From the NCBI GenBank assembly GCA_017449215.1, contig JAFSJY010000038.1:1-64000 (forward strand): 64,000 bases of DNA, written 5' to 3'. Shown piece after piece: positions 36,374 through 57,589 of this stretch (its first letter is position 1; each line of letters starts with the position of its first letter). The DNA comes from Acholeplasmatales bacterium. GTDB lineage: Bacteria; Bacillota_I; Bacilli_A; Acholeplasmatales; Anaeroplasmataceae. A program made the translations under genes and the position numbers. The notes under the pieces were generated by a model that was not told the DNA's origin, did no database searches, and worked only from the letters and a program-made list of their open reading frames with translations.

Positions 36374-36742
36374 ATGAGATATTTATGGCAAGTTTTATTT
36401 CACATGGCAGTAACAGCTGCTGGAGTTTTAATGATTGTTTTTGGTGCTCAAAATGATAATACAGCTCTTTGGGTTTGGGGTATTGTTGTTATTGTTGCCG
36501 GAAATTTATGCGTTTACGGATTATTATTCATTATTGGTTTATTAATGATTCCTGCTGCGCGTAGACAAGATTCAGAAACTGGTATGAATAAGTATAATAT
36601 CAGCAATAGAGTTAAGTACTGCAAGAAGTGTGGTAAGGAAGTTGAATACTCTGTTATGATTTGTCCTAACTGTGGTAATAAGACATATACTGAGGAAAAG
36701 CCATTAGGTATTGTAGAAGAGAAAAAAGAAGAAAATAACTAA
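36374..36742 (+). CDS. Small membrane protein with C-terminal zinc ribbon
   Basis: This 122-residue protein has two hydrophobic segments (about 8-27 and 33-57). A cytoplasmic zinc ribbon with two CxxC pairs (CKKCG near 83-87 and CPNCG near 98-102) follows, then an acidic Lys/Glu tail. It is four bases behind sufB and ends in a terminator, so it probably belongs to the suf transcript. Zinc-ribbon membrane proteins of this size are common in Firmicutes and mostly uncharacterised. No function can be assigned. Confidence 0.65.
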   Translation: MRYLWQVLFHMAVTAAGVLMIVFGAQNDNTALWVWGIVVIVAGNLCVYGLLFIIGLLMIPAARRQDSETGMNKYNISNRVKYCKKCGKEVEYSVMICPNCGNKTYTEEKPLGIVEEKKEENN

Positions 36743-36767
36743 GATAGACTTAAAGTCTATCTTTTTT
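36741..36767 (+). terminator. Intrinsic terminator of the suf operon
   Basis: AAGATAGACT (36741-36750) pairs with AGTCTATCTT (36754-36763), with T after. The stem starts in the stop codon. Confidence 0.88.
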
Positions 36768-36940
36768 ATAATCTTGATATAGTTTAAAACTATGACAAAT
36801 ATACAATATAAAATATAATTCTATAACATATATTTGTAATATAATAATATAAATATCATACCAAAAAACTAGGATTATGATGTAAAATATAAATAATGAG
36901 AAAGTAAATTATTATATAATTTAAAGCATGGGTGAAGATT
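36768..36940 (+). promoter_or_regulatory. AT-rich leader and promoter region of the metF operon
   Basis: This roughly 170-base region has no gene. It holds a 15-base dyad (ATAGTTT-A-AAACTAT, 36779-36793), a TAAAAT at 36883-36888 and a TATAAT at 36915-36920 just ahead of the metF site. I looked for a cobalamin riboswitch (B12 box) and a SAM riboswitch and saw neither. Confidence 0.4.
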
Positions 36941-37816
36941 ATGAGAATAGATGAGATATTAAAGAATAAAAAGACATTATCATTTGAAACGTTTCCTCCA
37001 AAAAAGGAAGTAGAGGAGGACTTAATTAAAACTAAAAATGTTTTAAATGAATTAGCAAAATTAAATCCAGATTTCATATCAGTTACCTATGGTGCTGGAG
37101 GTTCTAATTCAAAGGGCAATGTTGAATTAGCATCGTATATTCAAAATGTTTTACATATAGAAGCCTTAGCTCACCTAACTGGTGGTCCTTCAACAAAGGA
37201 GGATATTGATAGAATAGCTAATGAATTTAAGAAGAATAATATTGAAAATGTATTAGCCTTAAGAGGAGATAAGCCTTTAGATTTTAATCAAGAATACTGT
37301 AAGGAATTTAAGCACGCAACTGACTTAATGGAATACTTAAACAAATATGATTTCACACTTGCAGGTGCTTGTTATCCAGAGGGTCATATTGAATGTGATT
37401 CATTAAAGAAGGATTTAGAATTCATGAAATTAAAGGAAGAAAAGGGTGCTAAATTCTTTGTTACTCAGATTTTCTTTGATAATGAATATTATTATAGATT
37501 AGTTAGTGAAGCTAGAAATATGGGTATTAAATCACCAATTATTCCTGGTATTATGCCACTAATATCACCTAAATCAATTGCTAGAACTAAATCAATGTGT
37601 GGATCTACAATTCCTCTAAATTATAGAAACATGCTTGAATTCTATCAGGATAAGCCTAAGGCATTTAAGGAGCTAGGCTATAATTATGCAGTATATCAAA
37701 TTATGGATTTACTAGCTAAAGGTGCTCCTGGTATTCATTTATATGTAATGAATAATGTTGATACAGCAAAAGAAATAATTAGGAGACTTGAAAATGTCAT
37801 CAAGGAATATTTCTAA
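36941..37816 (+). CDS. metF: Methylenetetrahydrofolate reductase
   Basis: MetF reduces 5,10-methylene-tetrahydrofolate to 5-methyl-tetrahydrofolate, the methyl donor for MetH. The 291-residue protein has FETFPPKKEVEEDL near residue 16, the folate/FAD loop SVTYGAGGSN near 50, ALRGDKP near 111 and KEEKGAKFFVTQIFFDNEYY near 168. The ATG at 36941 is used; an in-frame GTG at 36932 lies within the ribosome binding site GGTGAAG. It overlaps the next gene by 23 bases, and the run metF, activation domain, metH is tightly coupled. Confidence 0.96.
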   Translation: MRIDEILKNKKTLSFETFPPKKEVEEDLIKTKNVLNELAKLNPDFISVTYGAGGSNSKGNVELASYIQNVLHIEALAHLTGGPSTKEDIDRIANEFKKNNIENVLALRGDKPLDFNQEYCKEFKHATDLMEYLNKYDFTLAGACYPEGHIECDSLKKDLEFMKLKEEKGAKFFVTQIFFDNEYYYRLVSEARNMGIKSPIIPGIMPLISPKSIARTKSMCGSTIPLNYRNMLEFYQDKPKAFKELGYNYAVYQIMDLLAKGAPGIHLYVMNNVDTAKEIIRRLENVIKEYF

Positions 37817-38411
37817 TATTGTTGATTTAGCTTATACATATTTAGGATATTCTAAATTATCTAGAAGTTCTGATATTGATAAATTAATAATGGAATCTAT
37901 TGATGAATTAGATAAGATTGCTCAATTTAATTATATTTATCAGGATTTTGATTATAAGCTAGATTTTATTAAGAATAATCCTATTTATGAATCCTTTTTA
38001 GAGGGCTCAACACATTATTATTTAGTATTAACTACATTAGGTAAAAGAGTAGATGATAGAGTTAAATATTATTCAATTACTGATATGAAGAAGATGGTTG
38101 TGTTTGATGCTGTATGTGGTGCTTATTTAGAGGTATTAGCTGACCAATATGAAAAGGATAATTTTGATGAATTAAGAACATATAGATTCTGTCCTGGCTA
38201 TCAAGGAACTAAGACAGCTGATTTACAGGATATATTTAAAATATTAAAGCCTGAAAGAATAGGAGTTATTATATTAGAATCTAATTTAATGGTTCCTTTA
38301 AAAACAATGTGTGGCTTAATTGGCTTTGGTAAAAAGATGAATAAATCATGTGGTAAATGTGATATTCGTGATAAGTGCGAATTCAGAAAGAGAGGTATGA
38401 CATGCTACTAG
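37794..38411 (+). CDS. Stand-alone MetH activation (SAM-binding) domain protein
   Basis: In E. coli the last domain of MetH binds SAM and reductively methylates inactive cob(II)alamin. Here a separate 205-residue protein carries that role. The SAM-binding pattern appears as YRFCPGYQGT near residue 129, and the LQDIFKILKPERIGV...LMVPLKTM stretch matches activation domains of split systems such as those of Firmicutes and Thermotoga. A C-terminal Cys cluster (CGKCDIRDKC) is typical of the stand-alone type and may hold a metal. It overlaps metF by 23 bases and metH by 10, so production should be matched. Confidence 0.88.
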   Translation: MSSRNISNIVDLAYTYLGYSKLSRSSDIDKLIMESIDELDKIAQFNYIYQDFDYKLDFIKNNPIYESFLEGSTHYYLVLTTLGKRVDDRVKYYSITDMKKMVVFDAVCGAYLEVLADQYEKDNFDELRTYRFCPGYQGTKTADLQDIFKILKPERIGVIILESNLMVPLKTMCGLIGFGKKMNKSCGKCDIRDKCEFRKRGMTCY

Positions 38412-40747
38412 AAAATTTAGGTAAAAAGGTAATGATTTTTGATGGCGGTATGGGAAGTGAAATAGAGAAAAAGGGCCTTGCTGGATTTATTCCTGAGGAA
38501 TTAAATATTACACATCCTGATGATATTTATGATATTCATGCCTCATATAAGGATAGTGATTTTATCACTACTAATACATTTGGCTTAAATAGAATTAAAT
38601 ATCATGGAAGCTATGATATTAAATTATTATGTGAAAAGGCAATTGAAAATGCTAGAAGAACTAATAAGATAGTTATGTTTGATATAGGCCCAACAGGTGC
38701 CATGCTAAAGCCTATTGGAAATTTATCATTTGATGAGGCATATGAAGCATTTAAGGAAGTAGTTTTATATTCAAAGGATTTAGTAGATGGATATATATTA
38801 GAAACATTTACTGATTTATATGAGGCTAAGGCTGCCTTACTTGCAGTAAAGGAAAATAGTGATAAGCCTGTATTTATTACAATGACATTTGATAAATCAG
38901 GAAGAACCCTAACAGGCTCAACACCTGAAATTGTAATTAATACATTAGAGGGCTTAGGAGCTGATGTCATTGGTGTAAATTGTTCCTTAGGACCAAAAGA
39001 ATTATATCCAATAATTGAAGCATTCATTAATAATGCTCATAAGCCTATTTTAATTCAGCCTAATAGAGGCTTACCAACACTTAAAAATGGTAAAACTATT
39101 TATAATTTAGAGTTTTCTGAATTTGATGAATATGTAAAAAAATATGTTGATATGGGTGTATCAGTAATAGGTGGATGCTGCGGTACAAATCCTGAATTTA
39201 TTACTGGTATTTCTAAATATAGAGGGTTAGAGGTAAATAGAAAGAATAATCCTTATAATACATTAGTTAATTCAGCTACAGTATTAACTAACATTGAAAA
39301 TGTTAAGGTCTGTGGTGAAAGATTAAATCCAACTGGTAAGAAGAAACTAAAACAAGCATTAATTGATGGTAATTACGATTATTTAGTTAATGAGGCTGTA
39401 AAGGAACAAGAGGCTGGTGCGGATTTATTAGACTTAAATGTAGGTGTACCTAAAATTGATGAGGTTGATAGAATGGTAAATTCTATTTTAAAGGTACAAG
39501 AATATTGTGATTTGCCTCTTCAAATTGATTCATCTAATAAGGACGCAATAGAGGCAGGATGTAGATATTATAACGGTATTCCTCTTATTAATTCAGTTAA
39601 TGGTGAAGATGCTGTTATGGATAGAGTATTCCCTATTGCTAAAAAATATGGTGCTGTTGTTTTAGGATTAGCACTTGATGAAAATGGTGTTCCTAAGACT
39701 GCAGAGGAAAGATTTGAAATAGCTAAAAGAATTATTAAAAGAGCCGAAGAATATGGTATTCCTAAGCATAGAATAATGATTGATACCTTAGTTTTAACTG
39801 CAAGTGCTGAGCAAGCATTAGTAAAGGAAACCTTAAAGGGCTTAACATTAGTTAGAAGCTTAGGTGTTAAAACAGCACTTGGTGTATCTAATGTTTCATT
39901 TGGTCTTCCTAATAGAGGATTATTAAATAAAACATTCTTATCTATGGCCATGTATGCTGGCTTAAATATGCCTATTTTAAATCCATTAGATACTGAAATG
40001 ATGGGTGCTATCGCATCATATAATGTATTAATGGGAATTGATAAGGATAGTCAAAATTATATTGATAAATATAAGGATGTAGAAATCTCAATTACTACAA
40101 CATCTAGTGGTACTGTAAAAGCAGATAATACAGGTAGCTTAGATTTATATAATGCAGTAAAGAAGGGCTTAAAGCCTGAAATAGAAAGATTAACAATAGA
40201 AGAATTATCTAAGAATGATCCAATGTATGTAATTAATGAAATATTAATTAAGGCACTTGCTGATGTTGGTACATTATATGATAAGGGTAAGCTATTCTTA
40301 CCTCAATTAATCGCATCTGCAGAGGCTGCTAAGGAAGCCTTCGCTGTAATATCTTCAAAATTCCCTAAGAAGGAAAATAAGAAGGCAACAATCATTATGG
40401 CAACTGTTAAGGGAGATGTACATGATATTGGAAAGAATATTTGTAAGGTAGTTGCTGAAAGCTATGGCTATGAGGTTATAGATTTAGGTAAGGATGTACC
40501 TATTGAAAAGGTAGTAGAGGCAGATAAGAAGTATCAGCCATTTGCGATTGGCTTATCTGCACTTATGACAACTACAGTTATTTCAATGGAGGATACAATT
40601 AAGGCCTTAAGAGCTTCAGGTACAAAGGCTCATATCTTTGTAGGTGGAGCTGTTGTGACAGAGGATATAGCTAAATCAATTAATGCAGATTATTATACAA
40701 AGGATGCATTAAGCTTAGTTAATTTATTAGAGGAGTTATTAAAATAA
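38402..40747 (+). CDS. metH: Cobalamin-dependent methionine synthase lacking the activation domain
   Basis: MetH transfers a methyl group from 5-methyl-tetrahydrofolate to homocysteine through methylcobalamin. The 781-residue protein has the homocysteine-binding domain (about 1-290; zinc Cys in GVNCSLGP and GGCCGTNP), the pterin-binding domain (about 300-560; VGVPKIDE and QIDSSNKDAIEAG), the cobalamin cap and the B12-binding domain with GDVHDIGKN (His near 674). The activation domain is missing and is encoded by the gene just upstream. The start at 38402 follows AGAGAGGT. Confidence 0.97.
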   Translation: MLLENLGKKVMIFDGGMGSEIEKKGLAGFIPEELNITHPDDIYDIHASYKDSDFITTNTFGLNRIKYHGSYDIKLLCEKAIENARRTNKIVMFDIGPTGAMLKPIGNLSFDEAYEAFKEVVLYSKDLVDGYILETFTDLYEAKAALLAVKENSDKPVFITMTFDKSGRTLTGSTPEIVINTLEGLGADVIGVNCSLGPKELYPIIEAFINNAHKPILIQPNRGLPTLKNGKTIYNLEFSEFDEYVKKYVDMGVSVIGGCCGTNPEFITGISKYRGLEVNRKNNPYNTLVNSATVLTNIENVKVCGERLNPTGKKKLKQALIDGNYDYLVNEAVKEQEAGADLLDLNVGVPKIDEVDRMVNSILKVQEYCDLPLQIDSSNKDAIEAGCRYYNGIPLINSVNGEDAVMDRVFPIAKKYGAVVLGLALDENGVPKTAEERFEIAKRIIKRAEEYGIPKHRIMIDTLVLTASAEQALVKETLKGLTLVRSLGVKTALGVSNVSFGLPNRGLLNKTFLSMAMYAGLNMPILNPLDTEMMGAIASYNVLMGIDKDSQNYIDKYKDVEISITTTSSGTVKADNTGSLDLYNAVKKGLKPEIERLTIEELSKNDPMYVINEILIKALADVGTLYDKGKLFLPQLIASAEAAKEAFAVISSKFPKKENKKATIIMATVKGDVHDIGKNICKVVAESYGYEVIDLGKDVPIEKVVEADKKYQPFAIGLSALMTTTVISMEDTIKALRASGTKAHIFVGGAVVTEDIAKSINADYYTKDALSLVNLLEELLK

Positions 40748-40748
40748 A

Positions 40749-42212
40749 ATGAGAAAGAAAAGTTTATTATTTAGTATTTTAGTTGCCGGTGCTTTAGTTA
40801 CTTTAGCATCATGTGGAAATAGCGAAGAATTAGATGATTTAAAGAAGGAGGTAGCTTCTTTAAAGGAAGAAAACTCTACTCTAAAGAATGATAAGGATAC
40901 TTTAACACAAAGTAATCAAACATTAAGTGATGAAAAGAAGGCACTTAAGGATTCTAATGATTCATTAAGGGAAGATTATTCAAAAATAGTAACAGATTTT
41001 GAAAAACTAAAAGGCGACTATAAGACACTAGAAGGTATGTATGAAAGCCTTGTTGATGCAAATGGAGAATTGAAGTCTGATGTAATAAATTATTTAAAGA
41101 CTGAGGATTTATATGCTGTTAAATATACTGATCCAGCTGGTGGAAGTCAAATCTTATTATTTAATGATTCTGTTAGCTTATCACAAGCGATAGTAACAGA
41201 TTTTAATGGTGTTATTAGTGATAGTGGATTCGTTACCAGTGTAAAAAATTATTCTGACCCTAACTGGTATGTAGCCTTATATGAAAATGGTGAATATACA
41301 TCTGTTGGTGTTAATGATTTAGTTGTTGATGCTGGTGATGTATTTGATCTTAAGCAAGAATGCTTGAATTCTAAAGAATCAGGCTATGGTACTTTAGATG
41401 AGTTTGATGTATTAGTAGATAAGGCTATTTATAATTATTATGTAAATGTATTACCTAAAAAACTTCAAAGTGTTAATACATATACAGGTAGCACATATTG
41501 GGATTCAATGGCTTTATATAAGCTAAAGAATACTCAATTATATGGTGCTAATGCTTATTCATATGAATCAACAGTTAATAATCCATTCTCATATGATTAT
41601 GTAACTGCACTAAATAATGTTAACCAATCAGAATTAAGTGGTAATAATTTATTTAAGTATTATTATGCTGATAGATTAGTTGCTAATAATAGAAATTATG
41701 ATGCTTTAAAGACTAAGTATCAAAGCTACTTAGATACATTGACTTCATATTCAGCATGGGGTGAATATGCTAACCCATTCCATACAGGTGCGGCTAAATC
41801 ATTAGGATTAACAGTAAATGATGCTATAAAGAATACTGAATATAGAGCTGATACAACTTATGGTACAGATGGTTTAGCTTGGGAGCTAGCTGGTCTTGCT
41901 TGCTATAATACATTAACAACAGCTGATTTAAGTGGATTATCATTTGAGGCATTAGAGAATAACGCAGCTAAGGATGTTTCATTATCAGCATATATCCTAC
42001 CTTACGCAGCTTCTAATATTAACTTTAGAGAATTGAAGGATTCTAATGATCAAGATGCATTAAGAGTTTTATTTAGCTATTATGATGAATCTACAATGCA
42101 ATTCGATACTGAGAAATTATCAAATGATATGTCTTCAAATCAAATTTATGCAGCCTTAGTTGCTTATAAGATTCAAAGAGATACAAATAATGCTCAGAAC
42201 CTTTTTGAATAA
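40749..42212 (+). CDS. Transcobalamin-like lipoprotein (coiled coil, DUF4430-like domain, alpha/alpha domain)
   Basis: This 487-residue lipoprotein has a signal peptide with lipobox LASC (Cys 22). A coiled coil (about 25-105) follows and could lift the rest off the membrane. Residues about 110-200 look like DUF4430, the domain related to the C-terminal half of transcobalamin and intrinsic factor (WYVALYENGEYTSVGVNDL, then VDAGDVFDL). Residues about 205-485 are helical and end in YAALVAYKIQRD, a style seen in alpha/alpha-barrel repeats such as the other half of transcobalamin. It sits two bases behind metH and ahead of a second DUF4430 protein and an ECF S component. I infer surface capture of cobalamin; binding is not shown by sequence alone. 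Confidence 0.75.
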   Translation: MRKKSLLFSILVAGALVTLASCGNSEELDDLKKEVASLKEENSTLKNDKDTLTQSNQTLSDEKKALKDSNDSLREDYSKIVTDFEKLKGDYKTLEGMYESLVDANGELKSDVINYLKTEDLYAVKYTDPAGGSQILLFNDSVSLSQAIVTDFNGVISDSGFVTSVKNYSDPNWYVALYENGEYTSVGVNDLVVDAGDVFDLKQECLNSKESGYGTLDEFDVLVDKAIYNYYVNVLPKKLQSVNTYTGSTYWDSMALYKLKNTQLYGANAYSYESTVNNPFSYDYVTALNNVNQSELSGNNLFKYYYADRLVANNRNYDALKTKYQSYLDTLTSYSAWGEYANPFHTGAAKSLGLTVNDAIKNTEYRADTTYGTDGLAWELAGLACYNTLTTADLSGLSFEALENNAAKDVSLSAYILPYAASNINFRELKDSNDQDALRVLFSYYDESTMQFDTEKLSNDMSSNQIYAALVAYKIQRDTNNAQNLFE

Positions 42213-42750
42213 AAAGAATATACTGAAAATTTTAATAATCTTATCATTTGTTGGAATTACTATTTTAGCTTTTTTCTTAGCTGACCAATTTTCTAAAAAT
42301 TATAAAAATGATGATAGTAAAAATTCTACTAACATAACTGAAAATATCAAAAAGGAGGAAACAAGCTCAAATCAAGAAAATACTGATTCCAAGCCTGAAT
42401 CAACATTAGATGAAAATAATTCTAATAATGATTTAGATAAAACTTATGATGATGGATTAGTTTCAGTACAATTACAATTAATAGATCGATTTGGCAATGT
42501 TATCTTTGATGAGGTTAGAAGAGCGGAAGAAAAAGAGGTTCTTTATGATGTTTTAGTTAAATATCATGAGGTAAGAGCTGAAAGTGGTACTTATGGTAAG
42601 GTTATATTTGATATAGATTCTGTTAAAACAAAATTTTATCAGGAATCATATATATCAATTTTAGTAAATGGTAAATATTCATCATTTGGTGTATCGAGTA
42701 TTTATGTTTATGATGGAATGAAGGTTACCTTTAAGGAGGTGGCCCTATGA
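42190..42750 (+). CDS. Membrane-anchored DUF4430-like protein
   Basis: This 186-residue protein has one hydrophobic anchor (about residues 12-31), a polar Asn/Ser/Glu-rich linker (about 32-85) and a C-terminal DUF4430-like domain (about 90-186; YISILVNGKYSSFGVSSI, then VYDGMKVTF). The start is taken as ATG 42190, inside the end of the lipoprotein gene; an earlier in-frame ATG at 42160 is possible. The last bases overlap the ECF S gene at ATGA. Domain and setting suggest a partner of the upstream lipoprotein in delivering cobalamin to the transporter. Confidence 0.75.
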   Translation: MLRTFLNKKNILKILIILSFVGITILAFFLADQFSKNYKNDDSKNSTNITENIKKEETSSNQENTDSKPESTLDENNSNNDLDKTYDDGLVSVQLQLIDRFGNVIFDEVRRAEEKEVLYDVLVKYHEVRAESGTYGKVIFDIDSVKTKFYQESYISILVNGKYSSFGVSSIYVYDGMKVTFKEVAL

Positions 42751-43280
42751 CAGTAAAAAAATTATGCTATTTAGTTGTTTTAACAACAATAATATTTGTA
42801 CAGGAGGAATTGCTAACACCAATTCCTTCAGTACAGCTAACATTCTTTTTAGTAATGATATATGGAGCGACACTTGGAATTGGATATGGTTCTTTAATAG
42901 TAGTAGCGCATGTATTATTAGATAATTTATATATGTCATCATTTGGTATTACAACAATAGGTCCAATGCTTATAGGCTATGAAATAACATTGATTATGGG
43001 ATATCTATTAAGAGGGAAAAATGAAATATTAAATGGAATTGTTAATGCACTATGTGCAGTAATTTATAGTGCTTTATTTATTCCAGTTAATATATTTGTA
43101 TATGATGTTGAGCCTTTAGCATATATCATAGCTGATATACCATTTGTGTTAGTATTGATGACATGTAATATGTTTTGTGCATTATTCTTATATAAGCCAA
43201 TATATAAGGTTTTAAATAATGAATTTAATAAGGATAAATATGTTGGAAACATATTTGAGAATGAAAATGGATTAGAATAA
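42747..43280 (+). CDS. ECF transporter S component, probably for cobalamin
   Basis: The 177-residue integral membrane protein has about five to six hydrophobic segments and the compact layout of energy-coupling-factor S components. The conserved-looking N-terminal helix and the GATLGIGYGSLIVVAHVLLD loop are typical of that group. The substrate is not readable from the fold. Its coupling to two DUF4430 proteins and B12-dependent methionine synthase points to cobalamin, as proposed for CblT-type S components. The shared EcfA/EcfA'/EcfT module is not in this window and must be elsewhere. GGAGG precedes the start; a terminator follows. Confidence 0.8.
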   Translation: MTVKKLCYLVVLTTIIFVQEELLTPIPSVQLTFFLVMIYGATLGIGYGSLIVVAHVLLDNLYMSSFGITTIGPMLIGYEITLIMGYLLRGKNEILNGIVNALCAVIYSALFIPVNIFVYDVEPLAYIIADIPFVLVLMTCNMFCALFLYKPIYKVLNNEFNKDKYVGNIFENENGLE

Positions 43281-55144: not shown

Positions 55145-56137
55145 ATGGCAAACACAACAATCTATGATGTAGCAGGTGCTGCAAAGGTATCTTTAGCTAC
55201 AGTAAGCCGTGTAATGAATAATCCCGAAAAGGTTAATCCTGAAACTAGAGAAAAGGTTTTAAGAGTAATTAAAGAGCTTGGATATCATCCAAATGCAATT
55301 GCTAGAGGCTTAGCTTCTAGAAAGTCAACAACAGTTGGTATTGTAATGGCAGATGTATCTAGAGCCGCAACAGCTGCTTTACTTGGTGGTATTACTGATA
55401 TCGCTAAGAAGTATGATTATGCTATTAAACTATTTACTATGGATCCTGAGGATGATATTAAGGAAGCTATGCGTAAGTGTGTTGCAGAACAGGTAGATGG
55501 AATTTTACTTTTAAATGATGAACTAGAATTAGATGATATGGGTATGGTTATCGATTTAATTCAGGATGCTCAAATTCCACTTGTATTATGTAATACAATT
55601 TATAATGAAAAGGATGTTCCTACAGTTGCTATTGATTATACAAAGGCAACATATGATATAACTAAGAAGCTTTTAGCTGAGGGTAAGAAGTATATTTATT
55701 TTGCTCAAACAGTACATAAATATTCTATTAACCAATTCAAAGCTGAGGGCTATACTAAGGCGATGGAAGAGGCTGGCTTAGATCCATTAATTTTAAAGTC
55801 TAGTGGTGATGTTTCATCTAATTCAGTTCAATTTAGAGAATTCTTAGAGGGTGGAAATAAGGTAGAGGCATTTATCTCTGTTAGAGATTCAATTGCTGTA
55901 AGCTTTATGAACCAAGCTATTGAACTTGGATTTAAGGTTCCAGAGGATATCAAGGTAGTAGGCTTACAAAATACTAAGTACGCATTATTATCTAGACCTA
56001 CATTAACTTGTGTTGATACACCAGTTTATGATATCGGAGCTGTATCTATGAGATTATTAACTAAGTATATGACTCATAAAGATGTAGCTGACAATAAGGT
56101 ATTCTTACCTTATAGAATAGTTGAAAGACAATCTTAA
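55145..56137 (+). CDS. ccpA: LacI-family catabolite control protein, CcpA-like
   Basis: The 330-residue regulator has the LacI-type DNA-binding domain (TIYDVAGAAKVSLATVSRVM near residues 5-24, then RGLASRKSTTVGIVM) very like CcpA. The periplasmic-binding-protein-like core follows. CcpA binds HPr phosphorylated on Ser46 and acts at cre sites. HprK and a PpaX-like domain in the same window support this reading. GGAGGG precedes the start. No clear terminator separates it from the T-box of tyrS. Confidence 0.88.
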   Translation: MANTTIYDVAGAAKVSLATVSRVMNNPEKVNPETREKVLRVIKELGYHPNAIARGLASRKSTTVGIVMADVSRAATAALLGGITDIAKKYDYAIKLFTMDPEDDIKEAMRKCVAEQVDGILLLNDELELDDMGMVIDLIQDAQIPLVLCNTIYNEKDVPTVAIDYTKATYDITKKLLAEGKKYIYFAQTVHKYSINQFKAEGYTKAMEEAGLDPLILKSSGDVSSNSVQFREFLEGGNKVEAFISVRDSIAVSFMNQAIELGFKVPEDIKVVGLQNTKYALLSRPTLTCVDTPVYDIGAVSMRLLTKYMTHKDVADNKVFLPYRIVERQS

Positions 56138-56340
56138 TATATCTAGTGATTAGAACCTAGTAGATATAAAGATATTTTTATAGAGAATTCGTGGTTGGTG
56201 GAAACGAATAAATGCTTTATATTGAATTACAATCTATGAAGATAATTTTTAAATGAGTGTTGTATTTTTTATACAGAACTAAGGTGGTACCGCGATAATT
56301 CGTCCTTAGAGCATTAGCTTTAAGGACTTTTGTTTTTATA
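56138..56340 (+). promoter_or_regulatory. Tyrosine T-box leader of tyrS
   Basis: The T-box sequence AAGGTGGTACCGCG lies at 56281-56294. Stem I pairs TATAAAG with CTTTATA and ATTCGT with ACGAAT around the GGTTGGTGG distal loop. The specifier codon TAC (Tyr) sits in the ATTACAATC stretch near 56230. A terminator stem GTCCTTA (56302-56308) with TAAGGAC (56321-56327) and a T-run follows. Uncharged tRNA-Tyr would stabilise the antiterminator and allow tyrS expression. A perfect 8-base dyad (TATATCTA at 56138-56145, TAGATATA at 56161-56168) at the 5' end may belong to the fold or end the ccpA transcript. Confidence 0.93.
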
Positions 56341-56365: not shown

Positions 56366-57589
56366 ATGGGAATTTATGAAGAATTAGAATGGAGAGGATT
56401 AATTAAGGATGTATCTGATCCATCAATTAAGGAAAAATTAAATAAGGGTGGAATGACTTTCTATATTGGAACTGACCCAACAGGTGATTCACTTCACATT
56501 GGTCATTTCTCAAGCTTCTTAATCTCTAAAAGATTAAAGGATGCCGGACATCATCCTATCCTATTAGTAGGTGGAGGTACTGGTTTAATTGGTGACCCTA
56601 AACCAGATGCTGAAAGACCTATGATTACATATGAAACAGTTGATCATAATTTTAATTGCTTAAAGGCTCAGGCAGAAAAGCTATTTGGCTTTGAGGTAGT
56701 TAATAATAGAGATTGGTTAGGGAAGATTAATATCATTGATTTCTTAAGAGATTATGGTAAGTATTTCAATGTTAATTTAATGCTTCAAAAGGATATCGTT
56801 GCTAGACGTCTAGATTCAGGTATTACATTTACTGAATTCTCTTATATGATTTTACAAGCATTAGACTTCTGGTATTTAAATAAGGAAAAGAATGTAACTA
56901 TGCAGGTTGCTGGTCAAGACCAATGGGGTAATATCACAGCTGGTATTGATTTAGTTAGAAGAAAGGAAGGTAAAGAGGTTTACGGATTTACTATGCCTTT
57001 ATTAACTAAGTCAGATGGTACTAAGTTTGGTAAGACAAATGGTAAGGCTATTTGGTTAGACGCTAAGAAGACTTCACCTTATGAAATGTATCAATTCTTT
57101 ATTAATAGTGAGGATGCTAAGGTAATTGATTACTTAAAGTTCTTAACATTCTTATCTAAGGAAGAAATTGAAGAACTAGAAAAGAAGAATGCTGAAGCTC
57201 CACATTTAAGAGAGGCTCATAAGGCATTAGCTAAGGAAGTTATTACTTTCATTCATGGTAAAGAAGCTTACGAAGAAGCAGTAAAGATTAGTGAAGCATT
57301 ATTCTCTGGTGATATTAAGTCATTAACTGCAGACCAAATTGAAATGGGCTTCAATGGCTTAACTACAATTGATGGTGCAGCTGATAAGACATTACTTACA
57401 GGCTTAGTAGAGGCAAAGCTTGCTTCATCTAATAGAGAGGCACGTCAATTCCTACAAAGCGGTGCTGTATCTGTAAATGGTGATAAGGTTACTGATATGA
57501 ATATGATGTTATCTAAGGAAAATGCAATTGAAGGTAGATATATCGTATTAAGAAGAGGTAAGAAATTATACGCACTTGTTAAGTGCTAA
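56366..57589 (+). CDS. tyrS: Tyrosyl-tRNA synthetase
   Basis: TyrRS charges tRNA-Tyr. The 407-residue length is normal. The HIGH motif is HIGHF near residue 42, and the KMSKS loop reads KFGKTNGKA near 226, a common TyrRS form. QVAGQDQWGNI near 189 is the family tyrosine-site stretch. A C-terminal S4 domain (SNREARQFLQSGAVSVNG near 350) binds tRNA. GGGAGG precedes the ATG. Controlled by the T-box just upstream. Confidence 0.97.
   Translation: MGIYEELEWRGLIKDVSDPSIKEKLNKGGMTFYIGTDPTGDSLHIGHFSSFLISKRLKDAGHHPILLVGGGTGLIGDPKPDAERPMITYETVDHNFNCLKAQAEKLFGFEVVNNRDWLGKINIIDFLRDYGKYFNVNLMLQKDIVARRLDSGITFTEFSYMILQALDFWYLNKEKNVTMQVAGQDQWGNITAGIDLVRRKEGKEVYGFTMPLLTKSDGTKFGKTNGKAIWLDAKKTSPYEMYQFFINSEDAKVIDYLKFLTFLSKEEIEELEKKNAEAPHLREAHKALAKEVITFIHGKEAYEEAVKISEALFSGDIKSLTADQIEMGFNGLTTIDGAADKTLLTGLVEAKLASSNREARQFLQSGAVSVNGDKVTDMNMMLSKENAIEGRYIVLRRGKKLYALVKC

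Follow-up and report, generated by a model that had tools for sequence, protein, structure and literature searches.

The last three genes of a six-gene operon in an Acholeplasmatales bacterium (positions 36941-43280 of a 64,000-nucleotide stretch of contig JAFSJY010000038.1, hereafter the window) very likely constitute a vitamin B12 (cobamide) import cassette that is read through from the genes of a B12-requiring enzyme, methionine synthase MetH, and in which a lipoprotein, denoted LP, would capture the cobamide for hand-over to the S component of an energy-coupling factor (ECF) transporter. The six genes, all on the plus strand, code for MetF, a putative MetH activation protein, MetH and LP, followed by a DUF4430 protein anchored in the membrane and by the S component. 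Judging by homology and gene context, the cassette almost certainly imports B12. The same reading had been put forward in a first-pass annotation made from the sequence alone and stands up in view of cobalamin riboswitches in 28 loci, a match of the S component to the B12 transporter CbrT, no CbiD in the family, a beta domain of LP with a transcobalamin-like fold and fusions of DUF4430 to the S component. Capture of B12 and its hand-over are inferred from the identity of the domains, the arrangement of the genes and the fusion; B12 binding by the individual proteins, its clasping by LP, the order of hand-over and the use of a shared motor are proposals.

Cobalamin riboswitches, B12 requirement and the S component

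LP was found in 18 other sampled genomes of the order, where it mostly comes after metH, the genes for MetF and the activation protein usually preceding both. Outside the family, cassettes of the type LP-DUF4430-S, or with DUF4430-S only, are found again, there without metH. A cobalamin riboswitch (RF00174), scoring 67-98.5 bits where the threshold is 31.5, is located directly upstream of the cassette, on the same strand, in 28 distinct loci (Table 1) and is missing in all 10 loci where LP abuts metH (the window, L023, L024, L026, L032, L035, and L037-L040). The gap between metH and LP is bimodal, with values of -17 to +16 nucleotides without a riboswitch and 246-263 nucleotides in the three loci with one; the contrast between riboswitch and abutment yields a Fisher p=1.6e-6 on counts uncorrected for kinship. 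The riboswitch is also missing, for other reasons, in L036, L124 and L138, in a locus with LP only (L131) and in one with DUF4430 only (L134). The tie to methionine synthase noted in the first-pass annotation is, therefore, a local variant; more commonly, the cassette stands by itself behind a riboswitch of its own. A second, differently ordered association is present in L168, where an S component with a riboswitch precedes, rather than follows, the genes for MetF, the activation protein and MetH.

Other neighborhoods of the cassette are diverse. In L121 and L122 (genomes G052 and G060), a riboswitch-DUF4430-S arrangement without LP is found beside genes for a YgiQ-type protein and a B12-binding radical SAM protein (DUF4080), and therefore the cassette can serve another B12 enzyme. 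The cassette in L135 adjoins a histidine utilization cluster (hutH, hutU, formiminotransferase, and amidohydrolase), and the genes in L130 are similar in size.

A search of the 55 genomes of the family for CbiD, which marks the anaerobic route of B12 synthesis, found none. The metH gene of the operon encodes the only methionine synthase of the window genome; MetE was not found in this genome and is present in just four other genomes of the family. A survey of co-occurrence with B12 enzymes, suggested in the first-pass annotation, supports the assignment: a B12-binding domain above the cut-off is encoded in 25 of the 55 genomes, the S component in 22 and both in 21, the single S-component genome without an enzyme containing this domain being 78% complete (Fisher p=3e-10, uncorrected for kinship). 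Within the genus, the same comparison gives counts of 18, 1, 4 and 4 (p=0.017). A borderline match to FecCD, the BtuC-type permease family, in the window genome (25 bits, or 26.5 with neighbors, the cut-off being 26.5) probably represents another ABC family, and no BtuC-type permease is evident in this genome.

The profile made from 30 S-component sequences matches a single Protein Data Bank (PDB) chain at E<=10, namely 6fnp_A (E=3.6e-4, residues 3-162), even though other S components are present in the PDB. This entry, titled 'Membrane protein', is the structure of ECF-CbrT, and the chain is its S component, CbrT. Among the 30 aligned sequences, six match PF12822 (ECF_trnsprt; best 8e-8), whereas the window protein alone shows no Pfam match, so that its earlier identification as an ECF S component is supported by the profile and by its relatives but not by the protein itself. 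Its closest characterized relative is CbrT. The close relatives of this S component come from Acholeplasmatales and Anaeroplasma genomes including that of a cultured isolate, Anaeroplasma bactoclasticum ATCC 27112, which has a fused DUF4430-S protein (see below) and carries its riboswitch in the interval from metH to LP. With Anaeroplasma/Acholeplasmatales as the closest named relatives, kinship places the system in a gut or rumen mollicute of the Anaeroplasmataceae, and the initial description of it as Gram-positive has to be abandoned. No motor genes are adjacent to the S component; the window genome encodes an EcfA-EcfT-TruA cluster (G000:C59) and a second EcfT (C63) and, therefore, a shared (group II ECF) motor is available.

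The identity of the cargo allows for an alternative, namely that the cassette imports a B12 precursor or another cobamide (e.g., cobinamide or pseudocobalamin) and not cobalamin itself. CbrT transports cobinamide as well (PMC5997447), and cobalamin riboswitches respond to many corrinoids (PMC9600662). There is no specific evidence against this possibility, and computation cannot distinguish between cobamides, but we consider it somewhat unlikely.

Domain architecture of LP and a possible delivery route

The PF14478 (DUF4430) domain is recognized in the 186-residue DUF4430 protein (27.1-27.3 bits against a cut-off of 23.8); LP alone scores just under the cut-off (22.4 bits), and relatives of LP reach 39.1 bits. 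The LP profile also picks up the neighboring DUF4430 protein at several of the loci that contain LP, which indicates homology between the two beta domains. DUF4430 and the S component are joined, in eight genomes (L025-L029 and L031-L033), in a protein of about 375 amino acids (368-385 when complete) with the layout TM-DUF4430-TM-S component, where TM is a transmembrane segment (e.g., L028:9994-11151), and the separate DUF4430 gene is missing. This fusion is strong evidence of joint action. No description of it was found in the literature searched, which did not extend to subscription journals.

An AlphaFold2 (AF2) model of LP residues 117-487, built from a 17-sequence alignment, has a mean predicted local distance difference test score (pLDDT) of 89.8 and a predicted template modeling score (pTM) of 0.90; prediction from the LP sequence alone reached a pLDDT of only 39.7. 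In Foldseek searches, the first ~95 modeled residues match the DUF4430-like structure 3u7z (TM-score 0.72, probability 1.00) and the beta domain of human transcobalamin in its apo (5no0) and cyanocobalamin-bound (5np4) forms (TM-score 0.56-0.58, probability 1.00), in agreement with the initial comparison of this half of LP to transcobalamin. The coiled-coil stalk that had been noticed at the same time is predicted as well; in its single modeled helix, residues 31-80 mostly have pLDDT values of 74-91 and residues 91-101 fall below 50.

The rest of the model (its residues 102-363) consists of about 12 helices. Neither LP nor its relatives match any toroid family in Pfam; comparison of the helical-domain profile with itself detects no internal repeat, the helical-only profile has no credible match in the PDB, and a Foldseek search against viral structures retrieves nothing at E<=0.001. 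The helical domain can nevertheless be linked to alpha/alpha toroids through a chain of homologs. The helical profile of the window clade aligns with the outgroup profile over the whole domain (E=1.9e-27). The helical part of the outgroup LP alone matches a Vescimonas protein annotated as 'terpene cyclase/mutase family protein' (E=2.9e-14 in profile comparison), a Vescimonas DUF4430 protein and an LPXTG protein of Latilactobacillus curvatus, whose toroid matches the toroid-like domain of LP with E=1e-15. The bridging Vescimonas protein, in turn, is similar to squalene cyclase structures (E=1.3e-8) and, below the family cut-off, to the Pfam 'Prenyltransferase alpha-alpha toroid' (E=5e-4). Kinship of the helical domain of LP with alpha/alpha toroids is well supported by this chain, which speaks to homology and not to geometry. 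Among 247 genomes of the class, no match above the cut-off was detected for PF01122, the animal cobalamin-binding family, and no relative in the searched genomes of the class passed the cut-off for PF13243 (squalene cyclase). A lone sub-threshold PF01122 match in the class was rejected because its host open reading frame (ORF) reads like a cysteine desulfurase.

Several observations weigh against the interpretation of the trio as a B12 capture and import system. The window operon contains neither a cobalamin riboswitch nor any other Rfam element, even at E<=1, so that its own link to B12 rests on homology and metH. The match to CbrT is distant (23.5 bits). Some cassettes lack LP (e.g., L121, L122, L165, and L167) and, hence, LP is not indispensable. 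No toroid is present among the top 50 Foldseek matches of the LP model, so that support for closure of the ring is indirect. Accordingly, the barrel that the first-pass annotation placed in residues 205-487 is supported by the helices and the profile links but not by the structure search. Finally, the window-clade profile shows only weak similarity when it is set directly against the Vescimonas bridge (E=0.007, probability 5.5%).

In the proposed mechanism, LP, held on its coiled-coil stalk at the outer face of the membrane, would bind a cobamide between the beta domain and the toroid-like domain. Mollicutes have no cell wall, and LP would, therefore, face the medium directly. The membrane-anchored DUF4430 protein would sit above the S component and assist in transferring the cobamide; docking of the S component on the EcfA/EcfT motor shared by the cell would then release B12 inside for MetH, kept reduced by the small activation protein. 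The chances appear evenly balanced that the cassette represents an ECF importer equipped with extracellular delivery of its own, in which the cobamide captured by LP is taken over by the beta domain tethered or, in eight genomes, fused to the S component and is loaded by this domain onto the latter. The current understanding is that ECF transporters operate without a separate binding protein. If correct, this scheme would represent a new mode of ECF loading together with a two-module B12 carrier that hands its ligand directly to a transporter, and hand-over from a binding domain to the S component would alter the picture of how ECF transporters gather scarce substrates.

Alternatively, the cassette could import corrinoids with the S component alone binding B12, LP being mainly an adhesion or spacer protein. 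This would fit the several cassettes that consist of DUF4430 and S without LP, the function of ECF-CbrT without an accessory binding protein (PMC5997447) and the divergence of LP, which is the most variable member of the cassette (22-41% identity to most relatives) and has a highly variable N-terminal stalk. However, where LP is present, it sits directly behind the B12 riboswitch, it unites both types of transcobalamin modules, and its helical core retains invariant residues; a mere spacer thus seems unlikely. In L030, a tandem pair of LP genes is located downstream of a single riboswitch (L030:9563-12111). It is highly improbable that the trio imports vitamins or peptides in general and is in the metH operon by chance: DUF4430 proteins come in many architectures and no cobalamin riboswitch was found for the toroid/DUF4430/ECF operon of L. 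curvatus, but the 28 riboswitches, the co-occurrence with B12 enzymes and the match to CbrT strongly disfavor this possibility.

Layout of the operon and the split methionine synthase

The tight coupling of the six genes reported in the first-pass annotation is confirmed, with junctions, in order, of -29, -37, +1, -23 and -4 nucleotides, i.e., overlaps or a 1-base gap (Table 1). The junction of the activation gene with metH would be about -10 instead of -37 if metH starts at the ATG at 38402. The gene order is not due to chance because it recurs in relatives whose LPs share only 22-68% identity. Promoter-like matches are as common in shuffled sequences as in this AT-rich region, that is, at chance level.

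Table 1. Features of the operon in the window and loci of related cassettes that are preceded by a cobalamin riboswitch
Feature	Position	Strand	Basis
Terminator-like hairpin closing the preceding operon	36741..36763	+	Sequence scan
Promoter-like match ATGACA-16-TATAAT, the best of the region; possible operon promoter	36792..36819	+	11/12
metF, methylenetetrahydrofolate reductase	36941..37816	+	PF02219, 240 bits
Putative MetH activation (reactivation) protein, separate, 207 aa, C-terminal four-cysteine motif	37788..38411	+	PF02965 below cut-off; place and motif in relatives
metH, 790 aa	38375..40747	+	S-methyltransferase (homocysteine), pterin-binding and both B12-binding domains
LP, candidate B12-capture lipoprotein, 487 aa	40749..42212	+	ORF, domains, conservation, lipobox
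LP signal peptide and lipobox LASC, Cys22	40749..40814	+	
LP predicted coiled-coil stalk, residues 25-101	40821..41051	+	Single helix in AF2 model
LP beta-grasp domain (DUF4430, transcobalamin-beta-like), ~residues 117-206	41097..41366	+	AF2 pLDDT ~90; Foldseek
LP all-helical domain, probable alpha/alpha-toroid homolog, residues 216-487	41394..42209	+	AF2; profile comparison
Membrane-anchored DUF4430 protein, 186 aa; TM 11-29, linker, DUF4430 residues 117-182	42190..42750	+	PF14478
ECF-type S component, CbrT-like, 177 aa	42747..43280	+	Profile against 6fnp_A; relatives match PF12822
Riboswitch-bearing loci within the family	L025, L027, L028, L030, L033, L121-L123		RF00174
Other riboswitch-bearing loci	L127-L130, L132, L133, L135-L137, L139, L158, L161, L164, L165, L167, L168, L170, L171, L173, L174		RF00174

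MetH appears to be split, with the four catalytic and binding domains on one protein, in which the Pfam domain scan detects no activation domain, and the activation domain on another, the match of the latter to PF02965 being below the cut-off (19.4 against 25 bits). The putative activation gene keeps its position in 12 relatives, and the C-terminal motif of its product is conserved in relatives (CxxCx5Cx6GxxCY in the window version); its four cysteines could bind a metal or an Fe-S cluster. MetH of Bacteroides thetaiotaomicron is split identically (PMC7311316).

Elsewhere in the window, an ORF that resembles tyrosyl-tRNA synthetase (56366-57589) is immediately preceded by a T-box leader (56137-56310; 101.9 bits), an ordinary arrangement.

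Comparison with known systems

The closest precedent is the work of Burroughs et al. (2007), who described bacterial SLBB domains fused to alpha/alpha toroids in either order, with another extracellular SLBB protein encoded in the operon and CbiO/CbiQ-type ECF neighbors, in hosts without B12 synthesis, and proposed B12 scavenging from the domain and gene context (PMC1796856). The order of domains in LP, beta first, is as given in the first-pass annotation and reverses that of the animal proteins but, since either order was published in 2007, is not new. The systems are alike in that a single surface protein combines a beta domain with a toroid, in the second SLBB protein, in the nearby genes for an ECF transporter and in the lack of B12 synthesis; they differ in that the cassette described here belongs to a mollicute host, has its motor genes elsewhere, includes DUF4430-S fusions and a metH operon, and is preceded in relatives by riboswitches indicative of control by B12.

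Human transcobalamin and intrinsic factor likewise combine a beta-grasp domain with an alpha/alpha toroid around B12, whereas LP has the reversed order, would be lipid-anchored on a coiled coil and shows no overall sequence match to them. The fold of LP also differs from that of BtuG. BtuG and BtuH of Bacteroides (PMC8941943) are surface lipoproteins that catch B12 for a transporter but, having other folds and belonging to an outer-membrane system, are only analogous. ECF-CbrT of Lactobacillus delbrueckii (PMC5997447) shares the S-component fold family, the shared ECF module and the link to a B12-enzyme operon; it is only distantly similar in sequence, and its function was demonstrated to require no binding protein outside the cell. 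A walled counterpart is encoded on a plasmid of L. curvatus (CP117684; L179), in an operon for a toroid-LPXTG protein, a DUF4430 protein, EcfT, an ABC ATPase and an S component. It resembles the mollicute cassette in the homologous toroid, the DUF4430 partner and the related S component (E=8.7e-10) but is wall-anchored, has the toroid and the beta domain on separate proteins, and possesses its own motor genes.

According to a 2009 survey, 88.2% of the examined mollicutes no longer utilized nickel and cobalt (PMC2667541), and the transporters for B12 and its precursors in many gut bacteria are a stated open problem (PMC6593275). Compared with the 2007 work and the L. curvatus operon, the new features are control by riboswitches, the fusion of DUF4430 to S, the replacement of the riboswitch by coupling to metH, the kinship of the S component to CbrT and the occurrence in mollicutes. 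The context-based prediction of 2007 is now backed by riboswitches at 28 loci, by proteins that unite the binding domain with the importer and by a connection with a B12 transporter of solved structure, and a cultured mollicute offers a testable candidate B12 capture system made of the modules of human transcobalamin.

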